From a virus, in the IMG/VR virus record IMGVR_UViG_3300048113_000292, positions 1 to 28,887 of that record: a DNA stretch of 28,887 nucleotides, one strand, 5' to 3'. Of the stretch, positions 5,049-15,182 are shown piece after piece. Within the stretch, counting starts at the first letter, position 1. The number at the start of each line of letters is the position of its first letter. The translations under genes and the position numbers were made by a program. Below the pieces are notes generated by a model, which was not told the origin of the DNA, searched no databases, and saw nothing but the letters and a program-made list of their open reading frames with translations.

Positions 5049-5268
5049 AAGAAAGATGCTCAACGGCCAGAGGTTTGAGATTAACGGTATGGATTTTATT
5101 TGTTTAGAAACTCACGCATATCTTCAAACAAGAACCGATCAAGAAGAATCTGATATAGATGTAGGATCTAGCTACTACATAGTTAGGAACACATCAACAG
5201 GGAAATTACACAGAATACCCTTTCAGAAAATTATAGACAAAGAAAACGAGATTAAATGGAAGACTTAA
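5038..5268 (+). CDS. 76-aa hypothetical protein
   Basis: The start overlaps the preceding gene by 11 nt and the end overlaps the DnaA-like gene by 13 nt. The sequence alternates short strands (GQRFEINGMDFICLE, SSYYIVRNTSTGKLHRIPF) suggesting a compact beta barrel. There are no catalytic motifs or membrane segment. Its function is unknown. Confidence 0.6.
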   Translation: MDFKRKMLNGQRFEINGMDFICLETHAYLQTRTDQEESDIDVGSSYYIVRNTSTGKLHRIPFQKIIDKENEIKWKT

Positions 5269-5705
5269 GCAAAGTGTTGAAGGAGTATTATGATGAGATC
5301 TGTCTCATCCCTAACGACACGAGAGAGACCGAACAGGTGTACGCTAGATCCGCTATGATGGTGTCAATGAGAAAGTATATGACATTGATGCAAATCGGTC
5401 GGATCTTTGACAAGAATCACGCTACAATTCATCACGCAGTGAAGAATCACGAGATAAATCACGATTGGAGCGAATTGTATAGATTCTATTTTTCAACGGC
5501 AACTCAAATGCTCTTGGATTGTCCTATTAAGAACATACAAAGCGATAACAGGCTTCAGGCTCAGTTCACTAGACAAAAGATGAGGATTGTAGAACTTGAG
5601 TACGAGGTTCAGAAATTAACATTGAAATGTCAAGAATTGCGTGATAATTGCAGTATATTACGAAAACAGAATAAAAACTTTAAGAAGTTGATTGATGCAG
5701 ATTGA
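5256..5705 (+). CDS. DnaA domain IV-like DNA-binding protein with coiled coil
   Basis: 149 aa. Residues ~27-66 resemble the DnaA C-terminal DNA-binding domain: YARSAMMVSMRKYM, then QIGRIFDKNHATIHHAV, comparable to the DnaA signature in which a GR(x)F(x)nH(x)TV(x)HA helix reads DnaA boxes. Residues ~100-145 are a coiled coil (VELEYEVQKLTLKCQEL) likely to oligomerise. There is no ATPase domain. It lies in the replication block after the helicase, so a role in origin recognition or in transcription control at iterons is plausible. The HTH similarity is visible; the role is inference. Confidence 0.65.
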   Translation: MEDLSKVLKEYYDEICLIPNDTRETEQVYARSAMMVSMRKYMTLMQIGRIFDKNHATIHHAVKNHEINHDWSELYRFYFSTATQMLLDCPIKNIQSDNRLQAQFTRQKMRIVELEYEVQKLTLKCQELRDNCSILRKQNKNFKKLIDAD

Positions 5706-10230: not shown

Positions 10231-10833
10231 ATGGAAAAAGTAGACATCAAGCAAGTGAGATCCAATCCAGATAACCCCAGAGTTATTAAGGATTACAAAT
10301 TTAAGAAGTTAGTCAAGAGCATCAAGGAGTTTCCTCAGATGCTTGAGTTGAGACCTATCGTGGTTAACAAGGAGATGATAGTGTTAGGCGGTAACATGAG
10401 GCTTCGTGCTTGTGAGGCAGCAGGACTCAAAGAAGTTCCTGTCATCTTCGCTGACAACCTGACTCCAGAACAAGAGATTGAGTTTGTAGTGAAAGACAAC
10501 TCTTCATTTGGAGAGTGGGATTGGGATGTGTTAGCTAATCAGTGGAACACGGACAATCTAAAAGATTGGGGACTTGATATACCAAAATGGGAAGACACGG
10601 AAGATTTTGATAGTGATGTTGTTGACACGGGTGACTACGACTTCCCTGAAGAAGCGGTTGAGGGATCTCATGTCAAGATGGTTCAGTTGTTCTTGAACAC
10701 TCAAACAGAGCCGTTGTTTAAAGAATGGGAGTTGGAATTGCGTAAGATCTTTGGGACGGACAACTTGACCGACACTGTTTATGAAGCGGTCAAAAAGCTA
10801 TATAAGGACAATCAGGATGATAAAGAGAATTGA
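10231..10833 (+). CDS. ParB-like (ParB/Srx fold) protein of the modification block
   Basis: 200 aa. The N-terminal ~90 residues match the ParB N-terminal fold: SNPDNPRVIKDYKFKKLVKSI, PIVVNKEMIVLGG, then GGNMRLRACEAAGL at about 54-67, equivalent to the ParB box II GxxRxxA nucleotide-binding loop. The acidic middle (EDTEDFDSDVVDTGDYD) is probably a linker. The C-terminal ~50 residues (MVQLFLNTQTEPLF onward) form a separate helical part. In phages such proteins often sit next to DNA methylases or base-modification enzymes, and could bind or nick specific DNA sites. It overlaps the oxygenase gene by 17 nt. A partition role is unlikely because there is no ParA. Confidence 0.75.
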   Translation: MEKVDIKQVRSNPDNPRVIKDYKFKKLVKSIKEFPQMLELRPIVVNKEMIVLGGNMRLRACEAAGLKEVPVIFADNLTPEQEIEFVVKDNSSFGEWDWDVLANQWNTDNLKDWGLDIPKWEDTEDFDSDVVDTGDYDFPEEAVEGSHVKMVQLFLNTQTEPLFKEWELELRKIFGTDNLTDTVYEAVKKLYKDNQDDKEN

Positions 10834-11710
10834 GTTAAGCCCTCGTTTAGATGATGATCAAGCAAAGAAGTTAGCAGGTGAACTTTTAGGAGAGAAAGAC
10901 TACAACACCTTGATAACATACGATGCTGATGTGTTTTGTTCTGAGACGGGAAAATGTATTGCTAAGTTTCGTAAGAAGATCATACCCGCAAACATCGCTG
11001 AAAACGCTTACGAAAGTCTTAAGAGCGTTTCTGCGGTATCTTCAAACAGAGGAGTGAGCGGAGGATCAACAGATGAAAAAGGATTGTTTAGCAAGAAAAA
11101 GATAAAGAAAGACGGGACCAGATCAAATACTGATTTAGTGGATCCTGTTTCAAGCGGCATAATCGGTTACTTTGACAGAAACCCCAGAACACCTTATTGC
11201 CGTCAAACGGCTTTCAATGAAAAGCAATTCTCAAAGTTTAAAAAAGCATATCCGATAATCAAGTTGGTTGACACCAAGTACGCTGAGTTGATGCCTGAGA
11301 ATTACGCTTTGCAAAGAGAAGTTGCTGACACGACATCTCAAGACTTTGTTATACCTAACACCGCTTTCACTACGGTGACTGTGAACAAGAATTGGCAAAC
11401 CGCAGTCCACACGGACAAAGGCGATTTTGAAAAGGGATTTGGAAACCTTGTTGTGCTTCGCAAAGGAAGGTACACAGGCGGTTATTTCGTGGTTCCAAAA
11501 TGGGGAGTCGCTTTTGATCTTCAGAACTGTGATTTGTTATTGGTTGATGTTCATCAATGGCACGGAAACACTCCGATACATAAGATTGACGAAGACGCGA
11601 AGCGTGTCAGCCTCGTTATGTATTATCGTAAGAACATGATTGTTTGCGGCACGGCTGATGAGGAAATGCGGATTGTCAAGAGCAGGAAACAAGGTGATAA
11701 GCTAAATTGA
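10817..11710 (+). CDS. TET/JBP-like 2-oxoglutarate/Fe(II) DNA base oxygenase
   Basis: 297 aa from ATG 10817 (an ATG at 10781 deeper in the ParB-like gene is less likely). The catalytic core is in the C-terminal ~110 residues: NKNWQTAVHTDKGD gives the HxD iron ligands (H198, D200), YTGGYFVVPKWGVAFDL is the characteristic TET/JBP G-G-x-x-x-x-P strand pair, LVDVHQWHGNTPI supplies the distal His (H249), and RVSLVMYYR gives the 2-oxoglutarate-binding Arg (R263). These enzymes hydroxylate the methyl group of 5-methylcytosine or thymine in DNA. The first ~180 residues are poorly conserved to my eye and may bind DNA. The next gene starts 1 nt after the stop. Other 2OG oxygenases share the HxD...H core, but the GGxxxxP and RxS context favours TET/JBP. 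Confidence 0.7.
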   Translation: MIKRIELSPRLDDDQAKKLAGELLGEKDYNTLITYDADVFCSETGKCIAKFRKKIIPANIAENAYESLKSVSAVSSNRGVSGGSTDEKGLFSKKKIKKDGTRSNTDLVDPVSSGIIGYFDRNPRTPYCRQTAFNEKQFSKFKKAYPIIKLVDTKYAELMPENYALQREVADTTSQDFVIPNTAFTTVTVNKNWQTAVHTDKGDFEKGFGNLVVLRKGRYTGGYFVVPKWGVAFDLQNCDLLLVDVHQWHGNTPIHKIDEDAKRVSLVMYYRKNMIVCGTADEEMRIVKSRKQGDKLN

Positions 11711-11711
11711 T

Positions 11712-12323
11712 ATGTGCGGTGTAGTAGGTTATAGTTGTTCAGATCCTAAGAAGGAACACTTTGAGATCCTTAACAGGATCATTGATCAAAGCAAAATCAG
11801 AGGTCTTCATAGCTTCGGGTACTCCTTCTTTGATGGTGAGGTGGTTACAATCAAGTATCACGACATCAACAAGGTTGAGTTCCCTTTTACAAACAAGATC
11901 ATATATCACAACAGATATTCTACAAGTGGTGATTACGCTAATCACGACAACAATCAGCCTGTTGCCGTTGGTAACGCTTCTTTGGTGTTCAACGGTGTTT
12001 TGGATATGAGGACCAAGCAAGAGATGGAAGAACATTATCAAATAGAGATGGAGACAGATAACGATGGTGAATTGATTCTAAAGCTATGCGGCTCAGATCC
12101 TGATAAGATTCAACAGTATGTTCAGAACACAACAGGATCTTTCGCAGGACTCGTTTTAACAGAGAACAACAAGATGATTGCCGTAAGAAACGGCAACAGA
12201 CCTCTTTGGAGATTAAACCATAGTGGCGCGATCTTTTACGCTTCCACAAGAGACATATTCAAAAGGGTTGATGATTCATTTGAGCCTGAGGAATTAGAAC
12301 CCAACATTGTGTATGAAAGTTAG
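11712..12323 (+). CDS. Stand-alone class II glutamine amidotransferase (Ntn hydrolase)
   Basis: 203 aa. Cys2 after the initiator Met (MCGVVGY) is the N-terminal nucleophile. Further family marks are HNRYSTSG at 66-73 (as in PurF GHVRYSTAG), FNGVLD at 93-98 (oxyanion Asn-Gly), DNDGELIL at 116-123, GSFAG at 142-146, RNGNRPLW at 159-166 and YASTRDIF at 176-183. This is a complete glutaminase domain of the PurF/GFAT/AsnB type with no synthetase or transferase domain attached. It should release ammonia from glutamine for a partner enzyme. It sits between the oxygenase and the transferase-type gene, which it overlaps by 11 nt, so the partner is probably in this cassette. Confidence 0.85.
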   Translation: MCGVVGYSCSDPKKEHFEILNRIIDQSKIRGLHSFGYSFFDGEVVTIKYHDINKVEFPFTNKIIYHNRYSTSGDYANHDNNQPVAVGNASLVFNGVLDMRTKQEMEEHYQIEMETDNDGELILKLCGSDPDKIQQYVQNTTGSFAGLVLTENNKMIAVRNGNRPLWRLNHSGAIFYASTRDIFKRVDDSFEPEELEPNIVYES

Positions 12324-13206
12324 ACCGCCACTCAACAAGGATTACATAACCTATCACATAGAGTCCTCTCAAGCTAAAGATATAGATCCAAGCAACGATT
12401 GCTTGAGGTATGTCGCAAACCGATTTGAACTCAACATTGAGCAGCGTTATTGGTTAGCGTTCTTGTTTGGCACTTGCTACTCAGCAACTATGGTCTACTA
12501 TGTCTACAACGAGTTCCCTGATTATGAGAATGTGAATGTGGACCGCCTTCAGAGATGGTGGGACCAAAACAAACACAAAACCCTCTTTCAAACGGACCGC
12601 CTCAGGGTAAAGACTCAAGACAAGTTTGTTGAGACCTTCGTCAGTTACAAGAATCTGCTCTCAGGAAGATCTCAGGCAGAACACTTTGCTTCACTAAAGC
12701 AACCAACGGTTCAGAACACCTACGACAACTGCTATTCAAACCTCTCTCAAATAAAGAACTTCGGGAGGTTCACTATGTTCATTTACCTTGAGATGGTCCA
12801 TGTGCTAACAGGATACGAGTTAGAACCAACACACCTAGATCTAAAGAACGCAGAGAGTTGTCGTAACGGACTCGTGTATCACTTAGGACACTATGAGTTA
12901 GATACGCACGGAAACGACAGGAAACTTACTAAAAAGCACATAGACTACCTTCAGTACAAGTTCAAGGAACTCAAGCGACAGATTGAGCAACACGATATCC
13001 AACACACCAACATCTGGAATATAGAAACAACCCTTTGCGCCTACAAGAAGTACGAGAAAGGGAAGAGGTACATAGGATACTATATTGACAGACAAAAGAA
13101 AGAGATTGAGAAGATGCAGAACAATGTGAGTGAAGGAGTTGATTGGAGTCCTCTTTGGGACTTCAGACAAGAAACATACGACAGAAAATGGCTCAAAGAA
13201 TTATAG
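12313..13206 (+). CDS. Base-hypermodification transferase-type protein (ADDT / HMUDK_hel / aGPT-PPlase-like)
   Basis: 297 aa from ATG 12313; a TTG two codons upstream is unlikely. It is all-helical, with phrases I associate with phage proteins annotated as amino acid:DNA transferase or 5-hmdU DNA kinase helical domain: YNEFPDY at 65-71, LFQTDRLRVK at 91-100, FGRFTMFIYLE at 150-160, NAESCRNGL at 179-187, NIETTLCAYKK at 236-246, RYIGYYIDRQ at 252-261 and WDFRQE at 282-287. Proteins of these groups are derived from helix-hairpin-helix glycosylases and replace the phosphate on 5-phosphomethyl-dU in DNA by an amine or amino acid, or assist the kinase. I cannot decide which clade this is. The kinase gene starts 19 nt before its end. 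Confidence 0.65.
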   Translation: MKVRPPLNKDYITYHIESSQAKDIDPSNDCLRYVANRFELNIEQRYWLAFLFGTCYSATMVYYVYNEFPDYENVNVDRLQRWWDQNKHKTLFQTDRLRVKTQDKFVETFVSYKNLLSGRSQAEHFASLKQPTVQNTYDNCYSNLSQIKNFGRFTMFIYLEMVHVLTGYELEPTHLDLKNAESCRNGLVYHLGHYELDTHGNDRKLTKKHIDYLQYKFKELKRQIEQHDIQHTNIWNIETTLCAYKKYEKGKRYIGYYIDRQKKEIEKMQNNVSEGVDWSPLWDFRQETYDRKWLKEL

Positions 13207-13703
13207 CGATAGGCGGTGAACCCGCAACAGGCAAATCAACCCTGATGAAGAGAATCATTAAGCAGCATATGCCTCTCAAAACATTCTCTTACGGATTGGT
13301 AAAGGGATTGTACTCTCAAGAGCACAATGTTTACTTCATAGGGATCTACGACAACTCAGTGTTCTGCGGAACAGATAAGCTAAGTATGGCGGTTCAACCC
13401 GTCTTTGTTAAGCTACTGAACAAGATGCCTGACGCAACATTTGTGTTTGAAGGCGATAGGCTCTTCAATCAAAGCCTCTTTGATCAGAAAGAATGCGAGA
13501 TATATGTGCTTGAGGTTAACGATGATGTGCTGAAAGCGAGACACGAAAAGAGAAACGACAATCAAACAGAACAATTCAAGAGAGCGAAGAGAACAAAGGT
13601 TCAAAACATAAAGGATAAGAACACCTTCACTTTGCTTCCAAACAACACGGCAGAACAAACTGAAGAGTGTTACAAAACAATCCTAAAAGCGATAAAACAA
13701 TGA
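13188..13703 (+). CDS. 5-hmdU DNA kinase-like P-loop kinase
   Basis: 171 aa from ATG 13188; an upstream TTG at 13143 is rejected. Walker A is GGEPATGKST (residues 9-18). The phrase YDNSVFCGTDKLSMAVQP (54-71) and the Walker-B-like FVFEGDRLFN (85-94) match the kinase family of hypermodified phages that phosphorylates 5-hydroxymethyl-dU within DNA. A basic C-terminal helix with Arg/Lys (HEKRNDNQ, KRAKRTKV) may form the lid and contact DNA. It is short and lacks a fused helical domain, which is apparently supplied by the preceding gene. The stop overlaps terS as ATGA, so cassette and packaging genes are transcribed together. Confidence 0.75.
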   Translation: MAQRIIAIGGEPATGKSTLMKRIIKQHMPLKTFSYGLVKGLYSQEHNVYFIGIYDNSVFCGTDKLSMAVQPVFVKLLNKMPDATFVFEGDRLFNQSLFDQKECEIYVLEVNDDVLKARHEKRNDNQTEQFKRAKRTKVQNIKDKNTFTLLPNNTAEQTEECYKTILKAIKQ

Positions 13704-14035
13704 ACAAAACCGAACAACATAAAAAAGCATTACTTGAAGCCCTTGAAAAGTCTCTTGGAGTAGTTACCTCAGCGTGTAAAACAGTTGGTGTAGGTCGCAC
13801 TACATTCTATCAATGGATGAAGGATGATGAGAAGTTTGCTGAAGCAGTAAGGGACATTGAGAACATCGCTTTGGACTTTGCTGAAAGTCAACTGCATCAA
13901 CAGATATCAGGAGGCAATTCAACCGCAACAATCTTCTACCTGAAGACAAAAGGCAAGAAGAGAGGGTATGTTGAGAGACAAGAGATAGCCCATGAGGGGC
14001 TTCGGACCTTTGAGATAGAAGAGGTGGATGAGTAA
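13700..14035 (+). CDS. terS: Small terminase subunit
   Basis: 111 aa from ATG 13700. The N-terminal ~45 residues form a helix-turn-helix of the phBC6A51/transposase-like type (SLGVVTSACKTVGVGRTTFY followed by QWMKDDEKFAEAV). A middle helical part (DFAESQLHQQISGG) is suited to ring assembly, and the C-terminal tail is acidic. TerS recognises the packaging site and regulates the large subunit. It lies directly before terL with an 8-nt overlap, and motif and position agree. Confidence 0.85.
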   Translation: MNKTEQHKKALLEALEKSLGVVTSACKTVGVGRTTFYQWMKDDEKFAEAVRDIENIALDFAESQLHQQISGGNSTATIFYLKTKGKKRGYVERQEIAHEGLRTFEIEEVDE

Positions 14036-15182
14036 GATACGAGTCAACAAAGTCTACGGACACTTAAACAAGTCTGATAAGAAGATCGTTGTTGAGCAGG
14101 GCGGAACACGCTCAGGAAAGACATACAACATCCTCTTATGGATTATCTTTCACTACTGCGGGAAGAATGTGGGCAAGACAATTACGATCGCTAGAAAGAC
14201 CTTTCCTGCGGTCCGATCATCCGTCATGAGAGATTTCATTGAGATCCTAAAAGGATCGGATCTATACAGAGAAGAGAGTCACAACAAATCAAATCACGAA
14301 TACATGCTCAACGGGAATATGGTTGAGTTCATCTCAATGGATCAACCTCAGAAGATCAGAGGGAGAAAGCGTGACTTAGCATTCCTGAATGAAGCTAATG
14401 AATTGACCTTTGAGGATTGGCAACAAATCGTATTCCGTACCAACGGCAGGATCATTCTTGACTACAACCCTTCAGATACATTCCATTGGATCTACGACAG
14501 GGTGATACCAAGAGATGACGCAGACTTCTATCAGACTACTTACAGAGACAATCCCTTTTTAGATCCTACGATCATTCAGGAGATAGAGAGACTAAAGGAA
14601 ACGGATGAGCATTATTGGAGAGTATACGGATTGGGAGAGAGGGGAACAAACAGAGCGCAGGTGTTTCAGTTTACCACCGTTCAGCAGATCCCTGTTACTG
14701 CTAAGTTTCTTTCCTTTGGTCTTGATTTCGGATTCACTAACGATCCTAGTGCGTTGGTCGGATGCTACCAAGAAGGTGACAACCTCTATTTCAAGGAACT
14801 TCTTTATTCAACTAACCTCACCAATCAGGATCTTGACAGAGAGTTCAGGAAATTAGAGATAGGCAGGTATGACGAGATCTTTGGAGATTCATCAGAACCT
14901 AAGAGCATTGAAGAACTTCACAGGATGGGATGGAACATCAAGCCAACTCAAAAAGGTGCTGACTCTGTTAACGCAGGAATTGATATGCTCAAGAGGTATA
15001 AGATCCATATCACAGGAAGCAACCTGATGAAGGAGATGGAGAACTACAAGTGGCTTGAAGACAAGAACGGAAACTTGCTGAACAAACCTGAAGACAAGTG
15101 GAATCACTTGATAGATGCCCTGAGATACGGGGTGTATAATAAATTAAGCAAACCTAATTATGGAAGGTACACAATCCGTTAG
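14028..15182 (+). CDS. terL: Large terminase subunit (ATPase/nuclease)
   Basis: 384 aa. Walker A is GGTRSGKT (25-32) and Walker B is LAFLNE (117-122) with the catalytic Glu; IILDYNPSD (142-150) is the coupling region. The RNase-H-like nuclease half shows GLDFGFTNDPSAL (231-243, first Asp 233), GDSSEPKSIEEL and HLIDALRYG with the later acidic residues. It packages DNA into proheads and cuts it into genome lengths. Length is somewhat short but within the range of this family (Terminase_3/6 type). The stop lies 23 nt inside the tail-chaperone gene, an unusual neighbour because portal genes normally follow terL. Confidence 0.95.
   Translation: MSKIRVNKVYGHLNKSDKKIVVEQGGTRSGKTYNILLWIIFHYCGKNVGKTITIARKTFPAVRSSVMRDFIEILKGSDLYREESHNKSNHEYMLNGNMVEFISMDQPQKIRGRKRDLAFLNEANELTFEDWQQIVFRTNGRIILDYNPSDTFHWIYDRVIPRDDADFYQTTYRDNPFLDPTIIQEIERLKETDEHYWRVYGLGERGTNRAQVFQFTTVQQIPVTAKFLSFGLDFGFTNDPSALVGCYQEGDNLYFKELLYSTNLTNQDLDREFRKLEIGRYDEIFGDSSEPKSIEELHRMGWNIKPTQKGADSVNAGIDMLKRYKIHITGSNLMKEMENYKWLEDKNGNLLNKPEDKWNHLIDALRYGVYNKLSKPNYGRYTIR

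Follow-up and report, generated by a model that had tools for sequence, protein, structure and literature searches.

Phages of the PaMx11/Abidjanvirus type produce 5-aminomethyl-dU (5-NmdU), a base already known from phages, together with its acetylated form, by means of a 5-phosphomethyl-dU (5-PmdU) glycinyltransferase, a flavin lyase and a GNAT enzyme. Iyer and colleagues (2013) reportedly predicted that hypermodification in phages can start from the products of TET, and Lee and colleagues (2022) are said to have noted combinatorial permutations of hypermodification genes. Phosphorylation of 5-hydroxymethyl-dU (5-hmdU) by a kinase, followed by substitution, is the logic described for the phages M6, ViI and phiW-14 (PMC6449724). 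A cassette scheme built of TET, kinase and transferase already has a published precedent as well: in Rhodococcus phage Tonitrus, a five-gene set was annotated with ParB, TET/JBP, a transferase-type protein and a 5-hmU DNA kinase (PMC11955845). Here we describe such a cassette in the virus record IMGVR_UViG_3300048113_000292, whose 28,887 bases are the window that we analyzed and on whose scale coordinates are given unless they follow the name of another locus. Its five genes, all on the plus strand, code first for a ParB-like protein and an oxygenase of the TET/JBP type, then for a class II glutamine amidotransferase that stands alone (GAT), a transferase of the amino acid:DNA transferase (ADDT) family and a P-loop kinase; the terminase genes follow directly.

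Like Tonitrus, the window has a set of five genes that includes ParB, TET/JBP, a putative 5-hmU kinase and a transferase-type protein, whereas, judged by annotation only, Tonitrus has aGPT-PPlase2 and a hypothetical protein and the window ADDT and GAT (PMC11955845). With the PaMx11/Abidjanvirus-type pathway it shares the fold of the transferase (8z2m), the expected phosphomethyl intermediate, a kinase and, in most relatives, the GNAT, and sister loci of the window carry homologues of the transferase and the flavoprotein of that pathway. The window differs in that it has TET for the hmdUMP synthase and GAT for glycine and the flavin lyase, in that its kinase belongs to a different family, and in that it contains no GNAT. 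In the window record no flavin lyase was found and no hmdUMP synthase scored above the cut-off, the latter in agreement with an earlier, sequence-only reading of this DNA. The systems of ViI/Kuttervirus and M6 (5-NeOmdU, 5-NedU) have the ADDT family and the kinase step in common with our locus; here, however, neither a thymidylate-synthase homologue nor the helical partner of the 5-hmdU DNA kinase (HMUDK) was detected, no pyridoxal phosphate (PLP) or radical SAM enzyme is present among the annotated window genes, and TET and GAT are added. The base J pathway and the TET-TAGT phage cassettes would start with the same TET/JBP oxidation in DNA, but continue with glycosylation, in place of which the window has phosphorylation and substitution.

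We are nearly certain that the cassette is a DNA hypermodification system. It is not a product of chance: the same set is encoded by relatives, and for each of the five genes dN/dS between the window and the closest relatives, L002 and L005, is 0.03-0.13, showing that all of them are under strong purifying selection. The catalytic residues are conserved. The sequence-only reading had described five genes with overlapping or 1-nt junctions and had proposed hypermodification by oxidation, phosphorylation and nucleophilic substitution. All five open reading frames (ORFs) are indeed present where it had placed them and are joined by overlaps or a 1-nt gap; only three likely starts had to be corrected (10817 for TET, 12313 for ADDT and 13188 for the kinase), because the ORF starts 10781, 12307 and 13143 are merely the most upstream possible ones. 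The proposed chemistry is supported by the family assignments. In the profile searches that the earlier reading had called for, the oxygenase falls into Tet_JBP and the helical protein into ADDT, and the Pfam scores for ParB_N, Tet_JBP, GATase_6 and ADDT all exceed the gathering cut-offs. The operon probably serves the post-replicative hypermodification of DNA bases, protecting the phage DNA from host nucleases.

The ParB-like protein (10231..10833; PF02195, ParB_N, 1.7e-7) consists of an N-terminal ParB domain and a C-terminal region common to other TET-linked ParBs. Its gene adjoins TET in almost all relatives, and it is a probable DNA-binding or recruitment partner. ParB-domain proteins have also been reported beside other phage DNA-modification genes, where their function is unknown (PMC12783734). 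The oxygenase (10781..11710) contains the 2-oxoglutarate-Fe(II) domain of the TET/JBP family (PF12851, 1.3e-28) with the motif HxD...H...R, whose residues H198, D200, H249 and R263 are invariant in 22 homologues. Its AlphaFold2 model is poor (pLDDT 43) and we drew no fold-based inference about the substrate from it; phmmer searches of the PDB with the single TET and ADDT sequences gave nothing useful.

The transferase (12307..13206; PF18724, 2.5e-19) has the helical fold of the 5-PmdU transferases. Its AlphaFold2 model is confident (pLDDT 88.8), and the sole confident Foldseek match in the PDB is the 5-PmdU glycinyltransferase of phage PaMx11 (8z2m/8z2n, probability 1.00, TM 0.57-0.61), while every other match has a probability of at most 0.07. 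A mixed ADDT profile, which itself included M6 and Ab18 sequences, matches 25qc and 8z2m. Seven residues (D27, Y58, R98, F152-G153, E240 and C244) are invariant among the ADDTs of the window type, Kuttervirus, Cr30, M6 and Ab18, and the window-type profile matches PhiSH19 AER70291 (1.7e-27). Given this fold and family, ADDT would displace the phosphate with a nitrogen nucleophile, the identity of the nucleophile being our proposal. In the loci L161 (5863-8001) and L162, the ADDT forms the C-terminal half of a 712-aa protein. Its N-terminal half of about 380 aa is unassigned and, in the L161 fusion, resembles neither M6 gp52 nor any Pfam family significantly; a 'PLP' profile built from this fusion was contaminated by ADDT and was discarded.

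The kinase (13143..13703) has only sub-threshold Pfam matches (AAA_33 7e-5, AAA_18 1e-4, Ploopntkinase3 0.0012) but belongs to phrog_800 (1.5e-11), which also holds the M6 kinase gp54. Its Walker A motif is conserved, and Cr30 and Melnitz, phages that carry TET as well, have homologues of it. Among the cassette proteins there is no match to the helical partner family PF18723, to which M6 gp55 belongs, and the kinase itself does not match the HMUDK family PF18748 at E values up to 1; the control M6 gp54 matches it at 7.7e-18. The relation of the kinase, which the earlier reading described as 5-hmdU-DNA-kinase-like, to the Pfam family of these enzymes is only distant. The phrog_800 label 'terminase small subunit', which M6 gp54 and Ab18 ORF12 also carry, is misleading: the group holds the 5-hmdU DNA kinase family of M6 gp54 (phrog_800 2e-39; PF18748 7.7e-18).

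The GAT (11712..12323; GATase_6 1.9e-9, GATase_7 4.7e-9) is a lone class II glutaminase domain of 203 aa with an N-terminal Cys and no fused synthase domain. The residues C2, R68, N94-G95 and D118, which correspond to the expected nucleophile and glutamine-binding residues, are invariant among homologues, and in the PDB the GAT profile finds PurF and asparagine synthetase. Of the distinct GAT clusters, 32 have flanks of 3.5 kb or more on each side, and most of these came from a scan using GAT alone. TET and ADDT lie nearby in every one of the 32 and the same kinase in 30. The constant partner is hence ADDT (32/32), no acceptor domain is fused to GAT, and we propose GAT as the ammonia source. 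GAT loci without the usual kinase, unless the contig is cut off downstream, have a different P-loop protein of 152 aa between ParB and GAT, in a changed gene order. The kinase step therefore appears to be kept through non-orthologous replacement even where the order differs, which suggests that a set of activities is conserved rather than inherited synteny.

Separate scans with TET, GAT, kinase and ADDT gave about 200 loci, in which some 100 distinct clusters of TET or kinase are represented and which were annotated with profiles. The ends of the cassette are nearly constant (TET and kinase, usually with ParB), and the middle genes vary. The commonest arrangement, type A, has GAT, GNAT and ADDT; forms of it without GNAT include the window, L002, L003, L028, L031, L045 and L046, and an extended form has an extra amidoligase-like gene and a second GNAT (L156, L163, L170, L172, L174). 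In type B (L004, L009, L022, L030, L041 and others), a glycyltransferase homologue (TRB) and a flavoprotein (FADB) sit where type A has the GAT-ADDT module, flanked by the same TET and the same kinase. Further loci have only a transferase (L042-L044), an unassigned gene of 246 aa (L149, L171), or TET and kinase with no transferase (L142, L158, L165). The cassette of the sequence-only reading is therefore one of several with interchangeable modules. TRB matches M6 ORF051 and Ab18 ORF09, and FADB matches Ab18 ORF10 (26% identity, 6e-8). The exchange is seen best in L004, which is 81-83% identical to the window in ParB/TET and 92% in the terminase large subunit, yet has a type B middle. In whole-record searches, GAT was found in none of the 10 records of types B and C and FADB in none of the 16 non-B records. 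This mutual exclusion suggests that GAT and the glycine/flavin module are alternative routes to one intermediate.

Most relatives, such as L005 (2199-2603), L006 and L007, have a GNAT of about 134 aa at the GAT-ADDT junction, at which the window (12313..12330), L002 and L003 have none. From this distribution, the gene was presumably lost in the window lineage rather than gained elsewhere. The likely ATG of the window ADDT at 12313 overlaps the GAT stop, and we rejected the idea that the MKVRP start of this protein is a relic of the GNAT: the bases overlap the C-terminal codons of GAT, so that they do not independently attest a deletion. The GNAT of the relatives resembles the Ab18 acetyltransferase (2e-11), which fits an amine product. 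The GAT, ADDT and kinase of L005 are about 95% identical to those of the window and its TET only 80%, a contrast that suggests recombination inside the cassette.

These assignments lead us to the following pathway. TET/JBP would hydroxylate the 5-methyl group of thymine, giving 5-hmdU in the double-stranded DNA of the phage itself, with ParB helping to bring the enzymes to the DNA. The P-loop kinase would convert this, as family and linkage suggest, into 5-PmdU, on which ADDT, as a member of the 5-PmdU glycinyltransferase family, would exchange the phosphate for a nitrogen nucleophile. GAT would split glutamine and feed the ammonia into this displacement, giving 5-NmdU directly; sister phages would reach the same amine through glycine addition and a flavin lyase. 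In most relatives GNAT would then acylate the amine, and the window phage, without GNAT, would keep it free. Oxidation, phosphorylation and substitution are argued from homology and linkage, and we consider it likely that the kinase and then ADDT act. The ammonia step we infer from the fact that GAT replaces the glycine-transferase and flavin module at the same place and that an Ab18-like GNAT usually follows; here the balance is about even. The complete series of reactions, our best explanation of the cassette, likewise stands at roughly even chances. More tentatively, with the chances somewhat against it, GAT and ADDT may form a glutamine-dependent DNA-base aminase, which, started by TET, would open a route to 5-NmdU independent of glycine and flavin lyase. 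The end product does not have to be any of 5-NeOmdU, 5-NedU and base J, as had been expected from the sequence alone, but novelty is not required: 5-NmdU is the simplest outcome, in which case the route would be new and the base a known one.

Several observations weigh against this pathway or favor another one. With regard to the substrate, TET may oxidize 5-methylcytosine (5mC) to 5-hydroxymethylcytosine (5hmC) at sites methylated by host or phage, from which the pathway would build a hypermodified cytosine. To our knowledge, the phage TETs characterized so far are 5mC enzymes. In Melnitz phages a C5-methyltransferase and TET accompany this kinase family, so that some members may act on cytosine, and host-made methylation and incomplete records may hide a 5mC route or missing genes. 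On the other side, 23 of the 25 records of at least 25 kb, the window included, have no C5-methyltransferase above cut-off (the other two have one), and 5-PmdU is the substrate of the solved relatives of ADDT. No thymidylate/hmdUMP synthase scored above cut-off in the 25 IMG/VR records tested, while M6, Ab18 and PhiSH19 do score. TET therefore plausibly takes the place of the synthase by oxidation in DNA, and both absences together make thymine the likely substrate. The substrate residues compared with TET2 and Melnitz do not discriminate between T and C, although R271 is kept in phages without a C5-methyltransferase and is D in Melnitz (one contrast only). The earlier reading had left T and 5mC open; our data lean toward hydroxylation of T in DNA, which we regard as likely, and make 5mC improbable.

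With regard to the nucleophile, ADDT may attach a free amino acid, be it serine, glycine or a different one, to the phosphorylated hmdU, as in ViI/M6, and GAT may act afterwards by amidating the carboxylate or transferring glutamyl, which would yield an amino-acid-amide or glutamyl-type thymidine. Members of the ADDT family use amino acids, as the names of 8z2m and of the Pfam family say, and the window-type ADDT is nearer to the Kuttervirus (ViI-type) transferases, which are thought to use serine, than to the glycine enzymes. GAT also adjoins amidoligases (phage tf and L156-type loci), so that the ammonia or glutamyl group it yields could be used elsewhere. Also to be set against our pathway are the GNAT similarity, which is in part superfamily-wide, and the kinase, whose relation to known HMUDKs is remote and which has no helical partner such as M6 has. 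What argues against an amino acid is that no ATP-dependent synthetase or amidoligase was found in the window cassette, that GAT persists in loci having neither, and that it excludes the glycine/flavin module. We therefore regard attachment of an amino acid as a serious but rather unlikely alternative to amination by ammonia. That the cassette targets RNA or a small molecule is hardly credible: the GAT, GNAT and P-loop kinase superfamilies do have other substrates too, but the solved ADDT relative is a transferase for 5-PmdU, the families of TET/JBP and ParB are linked to DNA, and we know of ADDT only from phage DNA hypermodification.

If the proposed pathway is correct, small phages with an unaltered dNTP pool would build hypermodified bases wholly after replication, starting with TET oxidation. 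The chemistry would be modular, related phages exchanging the substitution module while the oxygenase and kinase around it stay fixed, and the alternative modules would make specific products predictable. In a glutamine-dependent base aminase we would have a DNA-modifying enzyme pair of a new kind, and with it possibly a T-labeling tool for DNA. A limited literature search gave no match for a stand-alone GAT coupled to ADDT, for its mutual exclusion with the glycine/flavin module or for a different P-loop family in place of the kinase.

TET was also found outside this type of cassette. Nonlabens phage P12024L (L061, 7920-10185) has TET with a TAGT glycosyltransferase and a DNA methyltransferase. 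No C5-methyltransferase match was obtained in this phage, so that a base-J-like glycosylated hmdU in its DNA is possible. In its sister P12024S, from the same isolation host, an ATPase-GNAT gene is annotated at that place instead (L224, 2814-4356), and the pair is a possible natural test of this base. In Pelagibacter phage HTVC112P (L060, 6973-9195), ParB-TET is followed by an FkbM-type methyltransferase, which suggests a hydroxymethyl-pyrimidine methylated in DNA; no C5-methyltransferase was found in the complete genome. Methylophilales phage Melnitz-3 (L064, 3848-7928) has, in a row, an HhaI-like C5-methyltransferase, TET (with D, not R, at window position 271), an unassigned ORF and a kinase of the window-type family, possibly a 5hmC DNA kinase. 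In the T4-like Caulobacter phage Cr30 (L062, 9386-18279), TET and ADDT occur together with a protein weakly resembling TAGT, a gene annotated as inositol-1-phosphate synthase and the window-type kinase family. In bacterial genome bins, ParB-TET-TAGT occurs in a Spirulina metagenome-assembled genome (MAG; L184, 9241-11691) and ParB-TET in a betaproteobacterial MAG (L183, 9321-10924); both are perhaps prophages or phage contigs.

The remaining gene content of the window is that of a tailed phage, with endolysin, RusA-like resolvase, primase/helicase, exonuclease, terminase, protease and portal, the last being 38% identical to that of the Nonlabens phages P12024S/L. The small and large terminase subunits (13667..15182, plus strand) form the constant downstream flank of the cassette and lie outside the pathway. 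A small protein encoded at 5256-5705 contains a DnaA C-terminal helix-turn-helix domain (Bac_DnaA_C, 9e-8).

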